Below are positions 34,206 through 48,210 of a stretch of DNA of 64,000 bases, one piece after another. The stretch is from positions 1 through 64,000 of the forward strand of contig DWYY01000003.1 in assembly GCA_019118445.1 (NCBI GenBank), written 5' to 3'. Made by a program: the position numbers and the translations under genes. How positions within the stretch are numbered: the stretch's first letter is position 1; each line of letters begins with the position of its first letter. The DNA is from Candidatus Eisenbergiella merdipullorum. GTDB lineage: Bacteria > Bacillota > Clostridia > Lachnospirales > Lachnospiraceae. The notes beneath the pieces are model-generated. The model worked only from the letters and a program-made list of their open reading frames with translations, did not search any database and was not told where the DNA came from.

Positions 34206-34463
34206 TTTCCAAAACCGATAGGCATATCGCAAAATAGCTGTTTTCTGAGTCATTTTTTGCAAAGAATCCACTTGAATTATTTCTTATTTGGATTTATGAA
34301 TTTAGACACAGAATGTTCACAGTTTTGTCTTAAAATTGAAATTGATTTCACACTATATTTCAGCAGATAACCTGGGCCCTGGTGGACGTGCAGCATCTGA
34401 CGCAGCCGAGAAACCTTTGCAATGGACCATATCCCCAGGATCAGTCCCGGAAAGGAGACTATC
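34206..34463 (+). promoter_or_regulatory. divergent control region and long leader upstream of cysD
   Basis: About 260 bp up to the TTG start of cysD. A weak promoter fits TTGAAT (34272-34277), 17 bp, TATGAA (34295-34300). That leaves a ~150-nt leader containing a GGGCCC palindrome and a GC-richer block (34370-34420) of unknown role. I could not match it to a known riboswitch class. Confidence 0.3.
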
Positions 34464-35363
34464 TTGAAGCCTTTAGACCATCTGAGCACTCTGGAGGCGG
34501 AATCCATCTATATCATGAGGGAGGTCGCTGCAGAGTGTGAAAAGCCTGTCATGCTCTATTCTATCGGGAAGGACAGTTCTGTCATGCTGCACCTTGCCAG
34601 AAAGGCTTTTTATCCGGAGGATCCTCCATTTCCTTTTCTCCACATTGATACTACCTGGAAATTTCATGAAATGATCGAATTCCGTGACGCGACCGCCAAA
34701 AAGTACGGTCTGAACATGCTGGTCTATACCAACATGGACGGCGTGCGTCAGGGCATCAATCCCTTCGACCACGGCGCTGCATATACGGACATCATGAAAA
34801 CCCAGGCGTTGAAAGCGGCACTGAAGCAGTATGGCTTTACGGCAGCCTTTGGCGGCGGCAGACGGGACGAGGAAAAATCCAGAGCGAAGGAGCGGATTTT
34901 CTCCTTCCGGAACGCCGAGCAGACCTGGGACCCCAAAAACCAGCGCCCGGAGATGTGGAAGCTGTACAACACCAGGATCCACAAGGGAGAGAGCATCCGG
35001 GTCTTCCCTCTCTCCAACTGGACGGAGGCCGACATCTGGCAATACATCAAACGGGAAAATATTGAGATCGTCTCCCTGTATTATGCCAAGGAGCGTCCCT
35101 GCATCTACCGCGACGGCAACATCATCATGGTGGATGACGACAGGCTGAAGCTGCGCCCCGGCGAAAAGATCGAATATAAAAAGATCCGTTTCCGCACCCT
35201 CGGCTGTTATCCCCTCACAGGCGGCATGGAATCGGATGCGGATACATTGGATAAGATCATAGCTGAAACGCTCGGAGCCGTATACTCGGAGCGCACCAGC
35301 CGCGTGATCGACCACGAAGCGGCCGGCAGCATGGAACGCAGAAAAAGGGAGGGGTATTTCTGA
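34464..35363 (+). CDS. cysD: sulfate adenylyltransferase subunit 2 (CysD)
   Basis: A 299-residue ATP sulfurylase small subunit that makes adenosine 5'-phosphosulfate from ATP and sulfate in the cytoplasm. The pyrophosphatase-loop motif is '[11 protein letters not shown]' (~32-42), followed by '[12 protein letters not shown]' and '[20 protein letters not shown]', which are strongly conserved in CysD. I start it at TTG 34464 ([20 protein letters not shown]), because AAAGGAG stands 6 bp upstream and none precedes the tracked ATG 34422. Its stop overlaps the cysNC ATG by one base. The sulfotransferase downstream suggests that the product feeds sulfonation. Confidence 0.95.
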
Positions 35364-37192
35364 TGAAGGACCTGTTAAAATTTCTTACCTGCGGCAGCGT
35401 GGACGACGGAAAATCCACGCTGATCGGCCACATGCTTTATGACAGCAAACAGCTCTACGCGGATCAGGAACAGGCGCTCCAGCTTGACAGCCGGGTCGGC
35501 AGCGCGGACGGCCAGATCGATTATTCCCTGCTGCTGGACGGACTCATGAGCGAGCGGGAACAGGGGATCACCATCGACGTGGCCTACCGCTATTTCAAGA
35601 CGGAGGCGCGCAGCTATATCGTGGCGGACGCCCCCGGTCATGAGGAGTATACCCGCAATATGGCCGTGGCCGCCTCCTTCGCCCAGCTTGCCGTCATCCT
35701 TATCGACGCCTCAAAGGGCGTTCAGATCCAGACCAGACGCCATGCCCGGATCTGCTATCTGATGGGTATCCGCGACATGGTCTTTGCCGTCAACAAAATG
35801 GACATGGTGGGATACGACAGACAGCGCTTCAAGGAAATTGAAAGCGCCATCCATGAGATGACAGAGCCTTTTCCCTTAAACAGCCTTGCCATCATCCCGG
35901 TTTCCGCCACAATGGGAGACAATATCACGGAGCATTCTGACCGGATGCCCTGGTACAGCGGGCCTTCTCTTCTGGACTATCTGGATCAGGTCGAGATCGC
36001 TCCTTCTACGGAGAGTACGGATTTCACCATGCCGGTGCAGAGGGTGTGCCGTCCCAATTCCTCCTTCCGGGGCTTTCAGGGCCAGATCGAGAGCGGAAGC
36101 GTCCGCGTCGGCGATGAGATCCGCAGCCTTCCCAGCGGAGAAACCGCTGTGGTAACCGACATTCTCACAGGCTTTGATGAAGTGGAGGAAGCCGTGGCCG
36201 GACAGCCCGTGACCATTCAGCTCGGCCGGGAGATCGACATTTCCCGGGGCTGTGTGCTGGTAAAAGGAAAGGGCCATCCCATTTCAGAAAGCTTCACCGC
36301 CACGCTTTTGTGGATGGACGAATCCCCCCTGATGCCAGGCGTCAATTACATTCTCAAGCTGGGGACCAAAATGACAAACGCCACCGTCATGGACATCCAG
36401 TATAAGGTGGACATCCACAGCGGACGCCATGTCCCCGCCGACCGGCTTTATAAAAACGAGATCGGCGTCTGCAATATCCTGGTATCGGAAAAGATCATCC
36501 TGGATACCTTTGAAAAAAGCCAGCCCATGGGCGGCCTGATCCTGATCGACCAGGTCACCAACCATACCTGTGCGGGAGGAACGGTGAAAGCCGTCACATC
36601 CGGCTATGGGGATCTGTTCTGGCATGATTTTGACCTCACCAGGGATATCCGCGCCAGAAACATGGGGCAGAATCCCCTTACCATCTGGTTCACCGGACTG
36701 TCCGGCTCCGGGAAATCCACGCTGGCCAACGCCCTGGAAAAGAGGCTGTACGCCATGGGCATGCATACCATGGTGCTGGATGGGGATAATATCCGTCTGG
36801 GCCTGAACCGGGACCTGGGCTTTTCCGAGGAGGACAGGATCGAGAATATCCGCAGGATCGCCCAGGTGGCAAAACTGATGAACGACGCCGGCCTGATCGT
36901 GCTGACCGCCTTTATCTCCCCGTTCCACAGGGACCGGGACAACGCCCGCAAGATCATCGGCGACTCTTTTATCGAGGTCTATGTGAACACCCCTCTGGAG
37001 GAATGTGAGCGCCGCGATATCAAACACCTCTACCAGAAAGCGCGCAAGGGAGAGATCCATGATTTCACCGGGATCAGCAGTCCATATGAGGTCCCTGAAA
37101 ATCCGGATATCACGGTTGATACCACCGGACGCGCCGTGGAAGCCTGCGTCTCCGATATTCTGGAGAAGCTTGCGCCTTACCTGAAAAAATGA
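35363..37192 (+). CDS. cysNC: bifunctional sulfate adenylyltransferase subunit 1 / APS kinase (CysNC)
   Basis: A 609-residue fusion. Residues 1-~430 form the CysN GTPase with G1 'GSVDDGKST' (11-19), 'DAPGHEEY' and 'NKMD', plus two EF-Tu-like beta barrels. Residues ~435-609 form APS kinase with P-loop 'GLSGSGKST' and 'LDGDNIRLGLNRDLGF'. With CysD it makes APS at the cost of GTP and phosphorylates it to PAPS, the universal sulfonate donor. No PAPS reductase or sulfite reductase gene is nearby, so PAPS for transfer rather than reduction is the likely purpose. The sulfotransferase begins 29 bp later. Confidence 0.95.
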   Translation: MKDLLKFLTCGSVDDGKSTLIGHMLYDSKQLYADQEQALQLDSRVGSADGQIDYSLLLDGLMSEREQGITIDVAYRYFKTEARSYIVADAPGHEEYTRNMAVAASFAQLAVILIDASKGVQIQTRRHARICYLMGIRDMVFAVNKMDMVGYDRQRFKEIESAIHEMTEPFPLNSLAIIPVSATMGDNITEHSDRMPWYSGPSLLDYLDQVEIAPSTESTDFTMPVQRVCRPNSSFRGFQGQIESGSVRVGDEIRSLPSGETAVVTDILTGFDEVEEAVAGQPVTIQLGREIDISRGCVLVKGKGHPISESFTATLLWMDESPLMPGVNYILKLGTKMTNATVMDIQYKVDIHSGRHVPADRLYKNEIGVCNILVSEKIILDTFEKSQPMGGLILIDQVTNHTCAGGTVKAVTSGYGDLFWHDFDLTRDIRARNMGQNPLTIWFTGLSGSGKSTLANALEKRLYAMGMHTMVLDGDNIRLGLNRDLGFSEEDRIENIRRIAQVAKLMNDAGLIVLTAFISPFHRDRDNARKIIGDSFIEVYVNTPLEECERRDIKHLYQKARKGEIHDFTGISSPYEVPENPDITVDTTGRAVEACVSDILEKLAPYLKK

Positions 37193-37221
37193 GCTGTTAC
37201 TATGAGAAGGAGAAATACGGG

Positions 37222-38430
37222 ATGAAAGGAAAGAAGACAAAGCTGTCATTTATCTGCATCGGATTCCAGAAATGCGGAACCACATCCCTGTACGATCTGC
37301 TCAGACAACACCCAAACATCTATCTGACAGAAGACGTGAAGGAACCGATGTTTTACCGGGTTCATCTTGTCCGCCGGATCCTCGGCTCCGGCTGGTATCG
37401 GAAAAGATATTTCGGGCATCTGGAGGAAGCCAGACAGATGCCTCCCGCCGCGCGGCGCAGAACCTCTGAAAACGTAGGGCTTCTCACCGGACGCCGGGGG
37501 AAGACGTCCTCCGCCGGTACAGATCCATCCAAAGCCTGCGCAGCCACTTCCAAAGCCTGCGCAGCCGGACCGGAAGACAGCGCTGTATCTGTTTCAGGAA
37601 CGGATCATGCTGCGCCGGCAGCTTCTGACCAGAGCCAGGCAGACGGCAGACATGCTTCCGTCCTCTATCCGGGAGAGATCAACGCGGGCCTTGGTTTTAA
37701 CGGCTGCGCCCGCTGGCTTGGCAGGGATTTTACCCACGACACAAAGCTGATCTTCATGATGCGTGACCCGGCGGACCGCTGCTATTCCGCTTATAAATAC
37801 TTTCTCGCCCTCGGCTTCCTGCCCATGTCTGTGGCGGCGGATGATAAAAAAAGAGGACATGCTGCGGCCTTCGACAGCTATGTCCGCTCTGTCCTGCTCA
37901 ATCCACACCGCCGGAAGGAGATCAGGAGGCACCGCATGAAATATCTCTGCTTTTCCCAGGGCAACTACGCCTGCTGCATCCGGGAATACCTGCGCAGTTT
38001 CCCCAGAGAAAACATGAAGTTCATCTTCTTTGAGGAGTTCATCCGAGATGAGGAAGGCGTGACGAAGGATCTTCTCCGGTTTTTGCAGATTCCCGAAGCT
38101 CCGGGGATGTCCTATCATGTGAAAAGCAACGAGACCAACTTTCGGGCGGCTTCTCCGGTCTGCGCCAAAATCCTTCTCCTGTTCCAGGGTATGTACTATC
38201 TGTTCTTTGAATTTTTAAACATGGGACGCCGCTGCCCGGGATTTTTCCGGAAATTCATGGCATTCTATGACTGGAGCATGGATAAATGCACCCGTCCGGA
38301 AACAGATGCCTCCAAAATGCTGCCATCCACCAGAAAGCTCCTGAATCGCTACTATCAGAATGAGATCAGGAAAGTGGAGGAGCTTTCCGGCCGCAGCGTG
38401 CCTGAAAGCTGGGCACGCTGCGGAAAATAA
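37222..38430 (+). CDS. PAPS-dependent sulfotransferase
   Basis: A 402-residue sulfotransferase. The 5'-phosphosulfate loop is 'GFQKCGTTSLYDLLRQHP' (14-31) and the 3'-phosphate site is 'MRDPADRCYSAYKYF' (~178-192). A C-terminal 'PESW' ends the fold. I choose ATG 37222 behind GAAGGAG over the tracked ATG 37189 that overlaps cysNC without a ribosome site. An Ala/Ser/Cys-rich insert (~100-150), encoded partly by a 21-bp direct repeat, interrupts the domain. No membrane helix or signal peptide is seen, so it acts in the cytoplasm. The acceptor is unknown; it could be a glycan, lipid or small molecule. Confidence 0.88.
   Translation: MKGKKTKLSFICIGFQKCGTTSLYDLLRQHPNIYLTEDVKEPMFYRVHLVRRILGSGWYRKRYFGHLEEARQMPPAARRRTSENVGLLTGRRGKTSSAGTDPSKACAATSKACAAGPEDSAVSVSGTDHAAPAASDQSQADGRHASVLYPGEINAGLGFNGCARWLGRDFTHDTKLIFMMRDPADRCYSAYKYFLALGFLPMSVAADDKKRGHAAAFDSYVRSVLLNPHRRKEIRRHRMKYLCFSQGNYACCIREYLRSFPRENMKFIFFEEFIRDEEGVTKDLLRFLQIPEAPGMSYHVKSNETNFRAASPVCAKILLLFQGMYYLFFEFLNMGRRCPGFFRKFMAFYDWSMDKCTRPETDASKMLPSTRKLLNRYYQNEIRKVEELSGRSVPESWARCGK
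37528..37569 (+). repeat. 21-bp tandem repeat in the sulfotransferase insert
   Basis: Two copies of TCCAAAGCCTGCGCAGCC with a 21-bp period encode SKACAAT and SKACAAG. They lie in the low-complexity insert. Confidence 0.8.
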
Positions 38431-38486: not shown

Positions 38487-39746
38487 TCAGATTAAGAACC
38501 CTTCGTTTCTCAGAATATCCTGCACTTGTCTTACATCGACGTTGCGCACATTCGTATGATCTTTTACTGCGACGGCGACTGCTGTCCCCGCTGCCTGACC
38601 CAGTTCTGCGCAGTATGGCATGATCCTGTAAGATGCCTGCGCTTCATGTGTGGAAGAGATGCAGCGCCCAGCCACCAGCATGTTATTCATATGTTTCGGT
38701 ATCAGGCACCGGTAGGGGATCTCATACCACTGCCCGGCCCCAAAATAGTAATGTGTGGTCCCCGAACCTTCCGGATTATGGATATCTATATCATAGTTTG
38801 CTGTCGCAATGGCGTCAGGAAAGCGGGCAAGCGATTTCAGATCCGTTTCTGTCAGCGTATATTCCCCGTCAATTTTCCGGCTTTCCCGTATGCCTATCTG
38901 AATCGCGGTGGAAAGCACTCTTGCATTTTCAAACCCTTCGATATTATCTTTGAGGAAGCGATATAACTCAAAGACCTGCTCTCTCGCTTCAATCTCAGCT
39001 TTTGTAATGTCAAAAGGATCGGTAGGATCTCTCTTTACTATTCTTGTACTGTTAAAATGCAAAACGCCATCATTATAATTTTCAAAAATCAAAACATCCT
39101 CCCGGGGATTTTTGATCAGTCCTTTTTCTTTCCATTCCTGGTACAGCGGATTGATCTTCGACCGGTTTTTCTGAAATTTCTCCTTATCAACACCGCTCAT
39201 CCTGAAGCAAAGCGTCATTGGCTGACACAATCCGTCCGCTTCTCTGCCCACCTGGCTGGAGCATCCTGCCAGCATCGAAAGCTCCGCATCCCCTGTCGCA
39301 TCAATAAAATGATCCGCCCGAAACGACAGCGGCTTTGATTTTCCCAAGACCTGGATGGACATAAGATTTCCATCGGATACAGAAGCCTCCACAACGGTCG
39401 CGTCAAAAAGCAGGTTCACCCCATACTTTAATGCCATTCTGTTCAGGACAAGCTTTAAAACCTCTTCATCAAAATGGACAAGCTCATCCTTCGTATTCAT
39501 GATCTTGTTCATTTCTGAAACAATTTCCAAAAACAGACCGCCGCTGAGAAATTTTTTTTCTTTTTCTCCCGGCATATTTGTCCAATAGCACATAAACGGC
39601 ATGATCAAAGAACCCACCGCCGCGCCGCCAAGAGCGTTATACTTCTCTATCAGCAGCACCTCCACGCCCTGCTTTGCAGCGGAAATAGCCGCCGCTGTAC
39701 CGGCAAATCCGCCGCCTACTACGATCAGTTCATACTTGTCTTTCAT
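38487..39746 (-). CDS. FAD-dependent oxidoreductase (FAD_oxidored, PF12831)
   Basis: A 419-residue flavoprotein. The dinucleotide-binding motif is 'VVGGGFAGTAAAISAAKQGVEVLLIEK' (9-35), followed by 'NALGGAAVGSLIMPF' and 'HFIDATGDAELSMLAG'. It ends with 'THEAQASYRIMPYCAELGQAAG', the C-terminal FAD contact. This group is abundant in gut Clostridia and Bacteroidota beside carbohydrate genes, but its reaction is mostly unknown. ATG 39746 follows GTAGGAGGGC. It stands alone and converges on the sulfotransferase with a 56-bp gap. It is a relative of the second flavin domain of the 971-residue protein at 45.3 kb. Confidence 0.88.
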   Translation of the reverse strand: MKDKYELIVVGGGFAGTAAAISAAKQGVEVLLIEKYNALGGAAVGSLIMPFMCYWTNMPGEKEKKFLSGGLFLEIVSEMNKIMNTKDELVHFDEEVLKLVLNRMALKYGVNLLFDATVVEASVSDGNLMSIQVLGKSKPLSFRADHFIDATGDAELSMLAGCSSQVGREADGLCQPMTLCFRMSGVDKEKFQKNRSKINPLYQEWKEKGLIKNPREDVLIFENYNDGVLHFNSTRIVKRDPTDPFDITKAEIEAREQVFELYRFLKDNIEGFENARVLSTAIQIGIRESRKIDGEYTLTETDLKSLARFPDAIATANYDIDIHNPEGSGTTHYYFGAGQWYEIPYRCLIPKHMNNMLVAGRCISSTHEAQASYRIMPYCAELGQAAGTAVAVAVKDHTNVRNVDVRQVQDILRNEGFLI

Positions 39747-45294: not shown

Positions 45295-48210
45295 TCAACC
45301 TGTGGTTGGGTTCAAGATCTGATATGCCCTCCTGCGCAAGATATAATGTACATCTGTAAGCCCTCTCTCCAGGATCTCCTTTCCCAGTTGGCTTCCACAT
45401 TGATACAGGGCCTCTCCTAAAGAAAGTTCCATATAGGCACTTTGATAATACCTGCCTGTGCAGCGATCCTCCTGCCCGCTTTGAAGCGCTTCATTCTGTC
45501 TTTCATTTCCCAGGAATCCCAAAAGCCCCTCCCTTTCTGCCAATCCTTCCAGAGCTGTCAGATATTTTGGGGACGGCTTTTTTCGGATGTAGAGCAGCAA
45601 TGTCCTCAGCCTGTCATAATGAGGGATTTTATGTAAATCCCAGCGTCTTGAAACATATTCCGTATCAGAACGCATGGTACTTCCGCCGGAAGTAAACTTT
45701 TCTAGCAAAGTCCGTACACTTTCGGTTATGCCCTCTTCTTCCAGAAGAGCAAACACCGTAAGCAGCTGATTGATCCTCCAGTAATCGCTGTTCTTCCCCA
45801 CAATGCCTCCCAGATTATTTCCGGGCTTTATCATATTTTTATCATTATAGTCGTCAATGTTCTCCTTTTCCGCCAGATCCTTCAGAACGGTTTTTAACCG
45901 GGGGACCGCTTCCCTTTCTCCAAACCATGCGAGAGCCAGCCCAAGGGGAAGGTTGTCCGGATGCTTCAAATATTCCTCCATTACAGCGGATACTGCTTCT
46001 TTCGCAGGAAGGCACAGGACTTGACGCATGCTGTCCGCGTCTTCCGCTTTCAATCCTTCCAGCAGGTCTTTCCTGTCGTAATGGCTTTCCCGCTTTTTAA
46101 AGTGTTCCGCGTCCAAAATGTGCATATGCCGTAATATTCCCTGCAAGGTATCCATGCGGATATCCCGGATATCACAATGCTCTGACACCGCCATCGCGGC
46201 GGCAATTCCGATAGCATAGCCCCTGTTCTGCAGATCTCCGGCCATACGCAGGAAAGCGGCGGCATCCTGCGTACCGCTGATACTTTTGGAAGCAGCCAGA
46301 AGTCCGCTGATCCCTTTGGGAATACATGCCCGGTATGGAACCTCCACAGCATAGGCATCTCCATGAAAAGGCATCATCCCCATGTAGCTTAACAGGGAGC
46401 TCATCTCTCCATGTGGATCATTGTCCGTATAGGCCATTGCAATGGCATCGGGAAACCTTGTCTTCAGAAATATATCTGACATGCTGATAACATATTCCCC
46501 TTCAAAGGTCCTTCCTTCCCTGGGGGTGAGAAGGGGAGAAAAATCAATCCCGCCCCCGAAATGGTGTGCCATCCTGACCGCCCGCAGCACCTCTTCATAT
46601 TTACTTTGAAAAACAGCATCCAGATTATATCCGCCTCCATGGTAATGCATCAGGCCGCAGTCCTGGACATTCCCGCTGTCCTTCGCTCCCAGGGAGCATG
46701 GCACGCCGGCGTATTCCATTAAGTCCCCGTCTCCTGTTGCATCCACGATCACGTCGCCGCAAAGCCTTCCCCATTTTCCTTCATGCACGACAACAATCCC
46801 CCGAACGGCATCCGCCTCTTTTATCACGTCACAGACGGTCATATTATTATATCTCTCAATTCCCTCCTGCTCCATGGCATGTCCATACCACAGCATTCTC
46901 CCCGCTATGGAATTTTTCAACCCATAAGCTTCCATTTCCTTCGTGAACTGATTGGCAAACCCATCCTTATGGCAAAAATAATATCCCGTAATTGCCCCAT
47001 AAGTCTGTGTGCCGCCAAAACCGCAATGATATTCCGCGATCAGTGTATGAGCCCCGTTTCTGGCTGCCCCCATCGCCGCGGCCACACCGGCGGTCCCGCC
47101 TCCAGCTATTATGACCTCAGCTTCTGCCATCTCCGCAAGCTGACCGCTGTTTTTCATCGTGAGCTTCTGCAGCGGCAGCTTCACTTCACAATCATCCCAA
47201 TCCTCTTTTTCAAAATCCGTAAGGTTAAGGACAAGCTCTCCATTCCTGAAAAATTTTTCTGAAAAAACATCTGTGAAAGATGTTTCCGTAACACCATCCG
47301 ACAGCCATGCCTCAATTTTCTCCAGCCCGGAAACAAGCTCTTCCCCTGCATGAATGGAATACAGGTTCTTTACCGTTTTGCATGCTTCCATCCTGCAAGC
47401 CTCCCCTGCGTATGGTTCATAACAGAATAATTCTGCTGTCAGATCCGCTCTGGGGAATACCCTTTGCAGAAGCTTAACCGCTATGAGCATGGCCCTCTGA
47501 CCTTTCAGGAACATACCCCCAGTCTTTTCCGTTTTCCCCACGGGGAAGACCACCTCCAGAAAGGAAGCGTTCCCTTGGGGATATGTCCGGTATAATATGC
47601 CTTCCGCTTCCTTTTTCTCCTGCATCGTTAATGCCGGCCAGGCTGTTTCCAGAGCTTCCACAAGCTCTGTCAGGCTTCCACCCTGCTGCGGTATCTCCTC
47701 ACCCGCTTTAGTCTGATATCTTAATGCGGCAGACGCCATGCTTCTGTGCTCCCACAGCTTTCCATCCGCCATTTCCCTTAAAACTGATTTCTGTCCGGCA
47801 TCCATGATACATTTTCCACGGATCAGAAAATATCCCCATTTACTGCCAAGCAGCACGCCGCAGGCGGTTTCTTGTGTTTCCGTCCGTTCCAGAAATAATG
47901 CGCATGGCTCTAAAAAGAAGAAAACCTGCACATTATTTTCCTCTACCCAATCCAACAGCTTCCTCTTAATATCCCCGATCTCTGCCGGATGTCCTCCTTC
48001 ATCCCGGCATAGGTCCAGCATTTCCCTCACAACAGGATGGCTGCTGTCTTTATTCCCGTCATATTCATGGAAAGTTGCCGTAATGTCGCTTCCCAGAAAA
48101 CCTCTCCGCTCTATCAGCGCAACGCTGCAGCCCCTCCGGCTCATTTCCACGGCCGCCAGGCACCCTGCAAGGCTCCCTTCATAGATAATGTAGTCAAATG
48201 TCTTTTCCAT
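45295..48210 (-). CDS. large two-lobed FAD-dependent oxidoreductase with helical-repeat C-terminus
   Basis: A 971-residue protein. The first lobe (~1-345) opens with 'DYIIYEGSLAGCLAAVEMSRRGCSVALIERR', a dinucleotide fold in which the Gly-rich loop is degenerate. The second lobe (~355-680) has an intact 'VIIAGGGTAGVAAAMGAARNGAH' and a closing 'GTQDAAAFLRMAGDLQNRGYAIG'. A C-terminal ~270 residues are helical and HEAT-like, with 'LEKFTSGGSTMRSDTEYVSRRWD'. The second lobe matches PF12831 and is related to the protein at 38.5 kb. It begins 6 bp after the AraC gene and is the last gene of the second sugar operon. The substrate is unknown. Confidence 0.85.
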   Translation of the reverse strand: MEKTFDYIIYEGSLAGCLAAVEMSRRGCSVALIERRGFLGSDITATFHEYDGNKDSSHPVVREMLDLCRDEGGHPAEIGDIKRKLLDWVEENNVQVFFFLEPCALFLERTETQETACGVLLGSKWGYFLIRGKCIMDAGQKSVLREMADGKLWEHRSMASAALRYQTKAGEEIPQQGGSLTELVEALETAWPALTMQEKKEAEGILYRTYPQGNASFLEVVFPVGKTEKTGGMFLKGQRAMLIAVKLLQRVFPRADLTAELFCYEPYAGEACRMEACKTVKNLYSIHAGEELVSGLEKIEAWLSDGVTETSFTDVFSEKFFRNGELVLNLTDFEKEDWDDCEVKLPLQKLTMKNSGQLAEMAEAEVIIAGGGTAGVAAAMGAARNGAHTLIAEYHCGFGGTQTYGAITGYYFCHKDGFANQFTKEMEAYGLKNSIAGRMLWYGHAMEQEGIERYNNMTVCDVIKEADAVRGIVVVHEGKWGRLCGDVIVDATGDGDLMEYAGVPCSLGAKDSGNVQDCGLMHYHGGGYNLDAVFQSKYEEVLRAVRMAHHFGGGIDFSPLLTPREGRTFEGEYVISMSDIFLKTRFPDAIAMAYTDNDPHGEMSSLLSYMGMMPFHGDAYAVEVPYRACIPKGISGLLAASKSISGTQDAAAFLRMAGDLQNRGYAIGIAAAMAVSEHCDIRDIRMDTLQGILRHMHILDAEHFKKRESHYDRKDLLEGLKAEDADSMRQVLCLPAKEAVSAVMEEYLKHPDNLPLGLALAWFGEREAVPRLKTVLKDLAEKENIDDYNDKNMIKPGNNLGGIVGKNSDYWRINQLLTVFALLEEEGITESVRTLLEKFTSGGSTMRSDTEYVSRRWDLHKIPHYDRLRTLLLYIRKKPSPKYLTALEGLAEREGLLGFLGNERQNEALQSGQEDRCTGRYYQSAYMELSLGEALYQCGSQLGKEILERGLTDVHYILRRRAYQILNPTTG

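Follow-up and report, generated by a model that had tools for sequence, protein, structure and literature searches.

A conserved cysD-cysNC-sulfotransferase operon in Candidatus Eisenbergiella merdipullorum and its probable role in sulfation

A three-gene operon comprising cysD, cysNC and a sulfotransferase gene was characterized in a 64,000-nucleotide stretch of Candidatus Eisenbergiella merdipullorum (contig DWYY01000003.1; hereafter the window). The window covers the opening 64 kb of a contig of 79 kb, from an assembly of 3.70 Mb and 78% completeness. The operon is predicted to be self-contained, both making and using 3'-phosphoadenosine 5'-phosphosulfate (PAPS), with a cell-envelope glycan or glycolipid as its most likely acceptor, a reading to which a probability of about 0.6 is given. 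Gene identities, gene order, conservation, the absence of a reductase from the genomes searched and the fold class were computed, and from these we infer activity, acceptor and sulfate entry. Genomes, contigs and loci are cited by G, C and L numbers.

Genes of the operon and their products

All three genes are on the + strand and overlap or are separated by no more than about 30 nucleotides (nt), with an overlap of 1 nt between cysD and cysNC. Their coordinates in the window, and those of a variable segment within the third gene, are as follows.

34464..35363, + strand: cysD, sulfate adenylyltransferase small subunit (TIGR02039 and NF009214 over cut-off; TTG start kept in relatives)
35363..37192, + strand: cysNC, GTP-driven sulfate adenylyltransferase large subunit fused to adenylyl sulfate (APS) kinase (NF004035; PF00009, PF01583)
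37222..38430, + strand: predicted PAPS-dependent sulfotransferase with heparan-sulfate-enzyme-like fold (PF00685 and PF13469 over cut-off; AlphaFold; Foldseek)
37468-37665, + strand: variable low-complexity insert of the sulfotransferase, specific to the clade of the window enzyme (alignment)

A preliminary description of the window had proposed three tightly packed genes that together encode PAPS synthesis and one sulfotransferase, and this was borne out, since all products scored over curated cut-offs. CysD reached 483 bits with TIGR02039 (cut-off 397) and 510 bits with NF009214 (cut-off 413). CysNC reached 831 bits with NF004035 (cut-off 715), showed PF00009 and PF01583 domains over cut-off and carries both P-loops, GSVDDGKST and GLSGSGKST. 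The two proteins are accordingly assigned, by sequence, as a putative PAPS synthesis pair in which the CysN GTPase is fused to APS kinase. A close CysQ (3'-phosphoadenosine 5'-phosphate phosphatase) was not found in the window genome (G000), the best relative being 29% identical.

The TTG start of cysD at 34464, also given in the preliminary description, is preceded by AAAGGAG and conserved in relatives; the longest open reading frame (ORF) begins at an alternative ATG at 34422. The sulfotransferase ORF is open from 37189, in an ATGA overlap with cysNC, to 38430, and the likelier predicted start is the ATG at 37222, which has AGGAG upstream and is also the start of the orthologue in Candidatus Eisenbergiella stercoravium (L059).

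The sulfotransferase scored 59.7 bits with PF00685 (cut-off 22) and 44.2 bits with PF13469 (cut-off 27). No NCBIfam model names it, and its clade is without a named family. The PAPS-binding loop GFQKCGTT and the RDPADRCYSAY region are conserved in an alignment of 32 sequences, in all of which Lys17 and Glu41 are invariant. These features place the enzyme in the PAPS-dependent sulfotransferase superfamily, and transfer activity would be expected of it. A second sulfotransferase of the PF00685/PF13469 families was not found in the window genome, which is 78% complete.

In the mechanism proposed, CysD and the CysN part would convert sulfate and ATP into adenylyl sulfate, driven by GTP, the fused CysC domain would phosphorylate adenylyl sulfate to PAPS, and the cytosolic sulfotransferase would pass the sulfuryl group from PAPS to an acceptor. 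The product would be a sulfated molecule and not reduced sulfur.

Sulfation and cysteine synthesis

The gene complement of the carriers supports a predicted role of the operon in sulfation and not in cysteine synthesis, as the preliminary description had suggested. A check for cysH and cysIJ found no CysH-type protein in the window genome, where the sole PF01507 (PAPS_reduct) protein is CysD itself, and a NirA/sulfite-reductase-type gene on contig C197, unlinked to the operon. Within the window, no PAPS reductase, sulfite reductase or sulfate transporter is located beside the operon. A close AprA-type APS reductase was not found in the carriers, which gave only flavoprotein relatives with 26-32% identity; the best AprA-like match of the window genome is a 26% identical flavoprotein stretch with stops.

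The CysD loci of the family that were inspected fall into two kinds. The first consists of AprA (identified by NF005331), a ferredoxin-like protein, CysD and a CysN without kinase (L028, L033, L047, L140 and L141, not every part being seen in each), with a NirA/sulfite-reductase-type gene nearby in the assimilatory locus L140. The second comprises CysD with CysNC, often accompanied by CysQ, CHR, other sulfotransferase-like or glycan genes (L128-L138), and the window operon belongs to this kind. The flanks of CysD in L049 also show an AprA-type assimilatory variant.

Alternatively, the operon might serve mainly for sulfate assimilation to cysteine, if a PAPS reductase is encoded in sequence missing from the assembly. 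Assimilation normally begins with CysDNC, and two observations speak against sulfation as the main role: the genome does hold the NirA/sulfite-reductase-type gene, and with 78% completeness a missing reductase could lie in the assembly gaps. However, CysH is also missing from four carriers of a sulfotransferase relative that are 98-100% complete (G198, G130, G091 and G060), each with CysD as its one PF01507 protein, and the NIR_SIR protein is absent from G198, G091 and G060. Additional PF01507 proteins, one each in G028 and G347, reach no CysH, CysD or DndC cut-off and were rejected as CysH. The assimilatory loci of the family are built differently, with AprA and a CysN without kinase, and every member of the clade has the sulfotransferase in the operon as well. 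Assimilation as the main role is therefore considered highly improbable. NIR_SIR genes are present without any CysD in G107.

Fold of the sulfotransferase and probable acceptor

The AlphaFold model of the sulfotransferase, built from the 32 sequences, has a predicted local distance difference test (pLDDT) of 82.8. Its best PDB match is 3RNL from Alicyclobacillus acidocaldarius (E 2e-8 by fold, 1e-25 by profile), a structural-genomics entry named only 'Sulfotransferase' that gives no acceptor. The Foldseek PDB ranks 2-21 are all heparan-sulfate 3-O-sulfotransferase (3-OST) or NDST1 chains (E 3e-7 to 4e-5), followed by tyrosylprotein sulfotransferases (E about 2e-4) and lastly by SULT-type structures (steroid/phenol), only at E > 6e-3, and the order of matched classes was similar in the sequence-profile search. 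On the modelled structure, the nearest characterized fold class appears to be that of the heparan-sulfate-type (glycan) enzymes and not SULT. Lys17, in the PAPS-binding loop, and the later Glu41 align with a Lys and a Glu of 3-OST that have a catalytic role in that enzyme; a text check of PMC10864358 for the catalytic Glu gave no hit. The 3-OSTs and NDST1 are nevertheless animal enzymes with 12-16% identity, whereas the window enzyme is bacterial, lacks a signal sequence and carries the variable insert.

Residues 84-140 of this insert (37471..37641) are disordered, with pLDDT below 50. The insert changes fast, follows a conserved VGLLTGRRG motif and contains a short coding repeat, SKACAATSKACAAG; relatives outside the window clade are without it. 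Strong hydrophobicity marks helix 312-331 (Kyte-Doolittle mean of 1.44 across 19 residues), a hint that the helix may be in contact with the membrane. No signal sequence was seen at the N-terminus, which would place the acceptor in the cytosol or on the inner leaflet. We propose that the sulfate is most likely received, on the cytosolic face of the membrane, by a sugar within a cell-envelope glycan or within a glycan linked to lipid.

Support for a glycan acceptor comes from distant relatives: in locus L024 (G060:C62:14000-33900), three tandem sulfotransferases are located by CysDNC and CysQ in an apparent sugar-biosynthesis cluster. Other CysDNC loci (L133 and L136) are beside UDP-galactopyranose mutase, glycosyltransferase or PEP-mutase genes. 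The sulfotransferases of L024 carry an extra N-terminal region.

Against an envelope glycan or glycolipid it must be considered that, in the loci compared, the window-type operon is not accompanied by a glycosyltransferase or any other gene for making an acceptor, and genome context therefore does not name a glycan; moreover, fold class does not fix substrate, at 12-16% identity to the solved glycan enzymes. An operon at varied sites without acceptor genes is compatible with either a common component of the envelope or a molecule from outside, and the modelled fold class favours the former. An exogenous small molecule, such as a sterol, bile acid, steroid or phenol, would make the operon a detoxification or host-interaction cassette. 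The gene logic is the same as in the cholesterol-sulfating BT_0411-0416 cluster (PMC9417993), a cassette at varied sites without acceptor-making genes is what an outside acceptor would lead one to expect, and helix 312-331 could suit a lipophilic substrate; but among the matched classes the SULT-type structures lie farthest away (E > 6e-3 against 3e-7 for the glycan enzymes), and we regard such an acceptor as unlikely. The preliminary description had listed a surface glycan, a glycolipid and a host steroid or phenol as candidates; the modelled fold favours the first two and disfavours the last.

Sulfation of a tyrosine in a peptide or protein, in the manner of Xanthomonas rax, appears quite improbable. 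In the fold search, tyrosylprotein sulfotransferases come directly after the glycan enzymes, and Xanthomonas has a known set of PAPS genes with a sulfotransferase in raxP, raxQ and raxST (PMC4216712), but the glycan enzymes match about a thousand-fold better, and a recurring small precursor-peptide or exporter gene was not seen beside the operon.

A broader proposal, held tentatively and at a little less than even chances, is that the PAPS cassette occupying varied chromosomal sites in Lachnospiraceae and other Clostridia sulfates a common envelope glycan or glycolipid by means of a heparan-sulfotransferase-like enzyme with a clade-specific insert, which would represent an undescribed class of sulfated surface molecules in gut Firmicutes.

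Distribution, genomic context and related systems

Relatives of the sulfotransferase were sought by a scan of one genome per species, which gave 63 loci, nearly all from Lachnospiraceae or other Clostridia, and 397 genomes of the family were surveyed separately. Few genomes of the family have sulfotransferases of PF00685 or PF13469 (19 and 21 of the 397, respectively), and relatives of the window enzyme were detected in eight. The order cysD-cysNC-sulfotransferase, for which a search of related Lachnospiraceae had been suggested, was found in 14 of 14 loci of the close clade (the window, L059-L069, L117 and L120). Because it recurs in independent Lachnospiraceae genomes, this order is not due to chance. 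CysD is visible in 32 of the 63 database loci, several of the remainder being on short contigs. No close relative of the sulfotransferase was found in plasmid and phage records.

Distance matrices of the proteins are correlated (0.97 for CysN/sulfotransferase, 0.84 for CysD/sulfotransferase and 0.90 for CysD/CysN), values that none of 2000 permutations reached; these correlations indicate joint inheritance and not interaction, since the shared ancestry of the host species contributes to them. The sulfotransferase is the fastest diverging, with a mean distance of 0.45 versus 0.14 for CysD.

The preliminary description had placed the window in a Clostridia-type genome, in agreement with its nearest named relative, Candidatus Eisenbergiella stercoravium (L059; Lachnospiraceae), in which the operon recurs. 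Identity between the two is 99% for CysD, 95% for CysN and 82% for the sulfotransferase core. Further window genes, among them a desulfoferrodoxin and an S-adenosylhomocysteine-hydrolase-like gene, are also present in L059, and the operon is therefore considered at home in the Eisenbergiella lineage. G107, a genome of the same genus with 97% completeness, is without CysD and without a window-type sulfotransferase.

The operon occupies different sites in Eisenbergiella, Blautia and other Lachnospiraceae, and CHR in Blautia is the sole shared neighbour of interest for the acceptor. Of the 63 loci, 8 have CHR genes and 24 have TauE/SafE genes next to the sulfotransferase, both kinds being candidate sulfate transporters. 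The absence of a sulfate transporter beside the genes, noted in the preliminary description, thus holds for the window and does not extend to these relatives, in which CHR or TauE/SafE adjoining the operon would plausibly form a module for uptake, activation and transfer and provide the route of sulfate entry. In the window genome neither is adjacent, and CHR pairs are located on contigs C108 and C171; the neighbours of a contig-edge CHR fragment (C41) are uninformative. In one subclade (L074-L118), a convergent HD-domain gene (PF13023, YfbR-like; e.g. L078 10896-11570) comes after the sulfotransferase-TauE/SafE pair and might conceivably take part in nucleotide clean-up. Next to CysDNC or in its vicinity, other Lachnospiraceae encode a second sulfotransferase-like family whose members have a HIGTPKTGT-type start (L130 9890-11041, L135 4233-5495 and L138 11065-12309); with Pfam, the L138 protein fell 0.4 bits below cut-off and the L130 protein had no match.

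The architecture is already known from nodPQ/nodH, the rax genes and Bacteroides BT_0411-0416. In rhizobia, CysD- and CysNC-type PAPS genes are likewise dedicated to a sulfotransferase, for sulfation of Nod lipo-oligosaccharides; NodP is 63% and NodQ 46-58% identical to the window proteins. NodH, however, is not a detectable relative of the window sulfotransferase (BLASTP E 0.14, profile E 0.1); it has 247 amino acids, lacks the KEPMxYR segment, and the rhizobial acceptor is known. The gut Bacteroides cluster BT_0411-0416, which serves for cholesterol sulfate, unites genes for sulfate import, for PAPS synthesis and for a PAPS sulfotransferase (PMC9417993). It belongs to another phylum and has its importer in the cluster, whereas none is beside the window sulfotransferase, and the likeness is one of gene content by description. 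In Xanthomonas, raxP and raxQ make PAPS serving one sulfotransferase, raxST (PMC4216712), which shares an operon with raxA and raxB of a type I secretion system; nothing similar is present at the window locus.

Two elements were located upstream of cysD:

34272..34300, + strand: putative promoter (TTGAAT, 17 nt, TATGAA), found by eye; similar arrangement in L059; weak, below the promoter-scan threshold
34305..34325, + strand: conserved 5' box GACACARAATGTTCAYATTTT, candidate operator or leader (alignment); 21-31 bp, reaching 34335 with its T/A-rich tail

The GACACARAATGTTCAYATTTT box is nearly invariant upstream of cysD in the five loci aligned (the window, L059, L060, L062 and L063). Rfam gave no match at threshold upstream of cysD or across the whole window, and therefore no known riboswitch is present. 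The box was rejected as a pointer to acceptor genes, as its one or two extra copies in G000 and G107 are all near unrelated genes, encoding a small HEAT-repeat-like protein (G000) and a lipoprotein-like product (G107). Blautia loci show a short CAGGAT/ATCCTG-type inverted repeat ahead of the ribosome-binding site.

Downstream, two FAD-dependent oxidoreductases (PF12831) are encoded on the minus strand (38487-39746 and 45295-48210), in a region that also holds sugar-type ABC transporter and AraC-type regulator genes. The oxidoreductase that adjoins the operon here does not accompany it in L059.

The operon is a real, conserved instance of a known architecture, in a lineage without a published example found. 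The literature searched yielded no PAPS-sulfotransferase operon of Lachnospiraceae, Eisenbergiella or other Firmicutes, and the gut bacterial PAPS sulfation found there is that of Bacteroides. The earlier view of the Firmicutes version as under-described holds in this respect; nonetheless, CysD is over cut-off in 75 of the 397 family genomes, often beside a fused CysNC, and the module is therefore less exceptional than first suggested. Blautia sp. An81 (L060), which carries the same operon, is in culture, so that the proposal is open to experiment. If it is true, a conserved Lachnospiraceae module that links probable sulfate uptake and PAPS synthesis to a glycan-type sulfotransferase would make gut Firmicutes producers of sulfated molecules in their own right, with possible effects on host lectin recognition, on the binding of phages and on local sulfate use.

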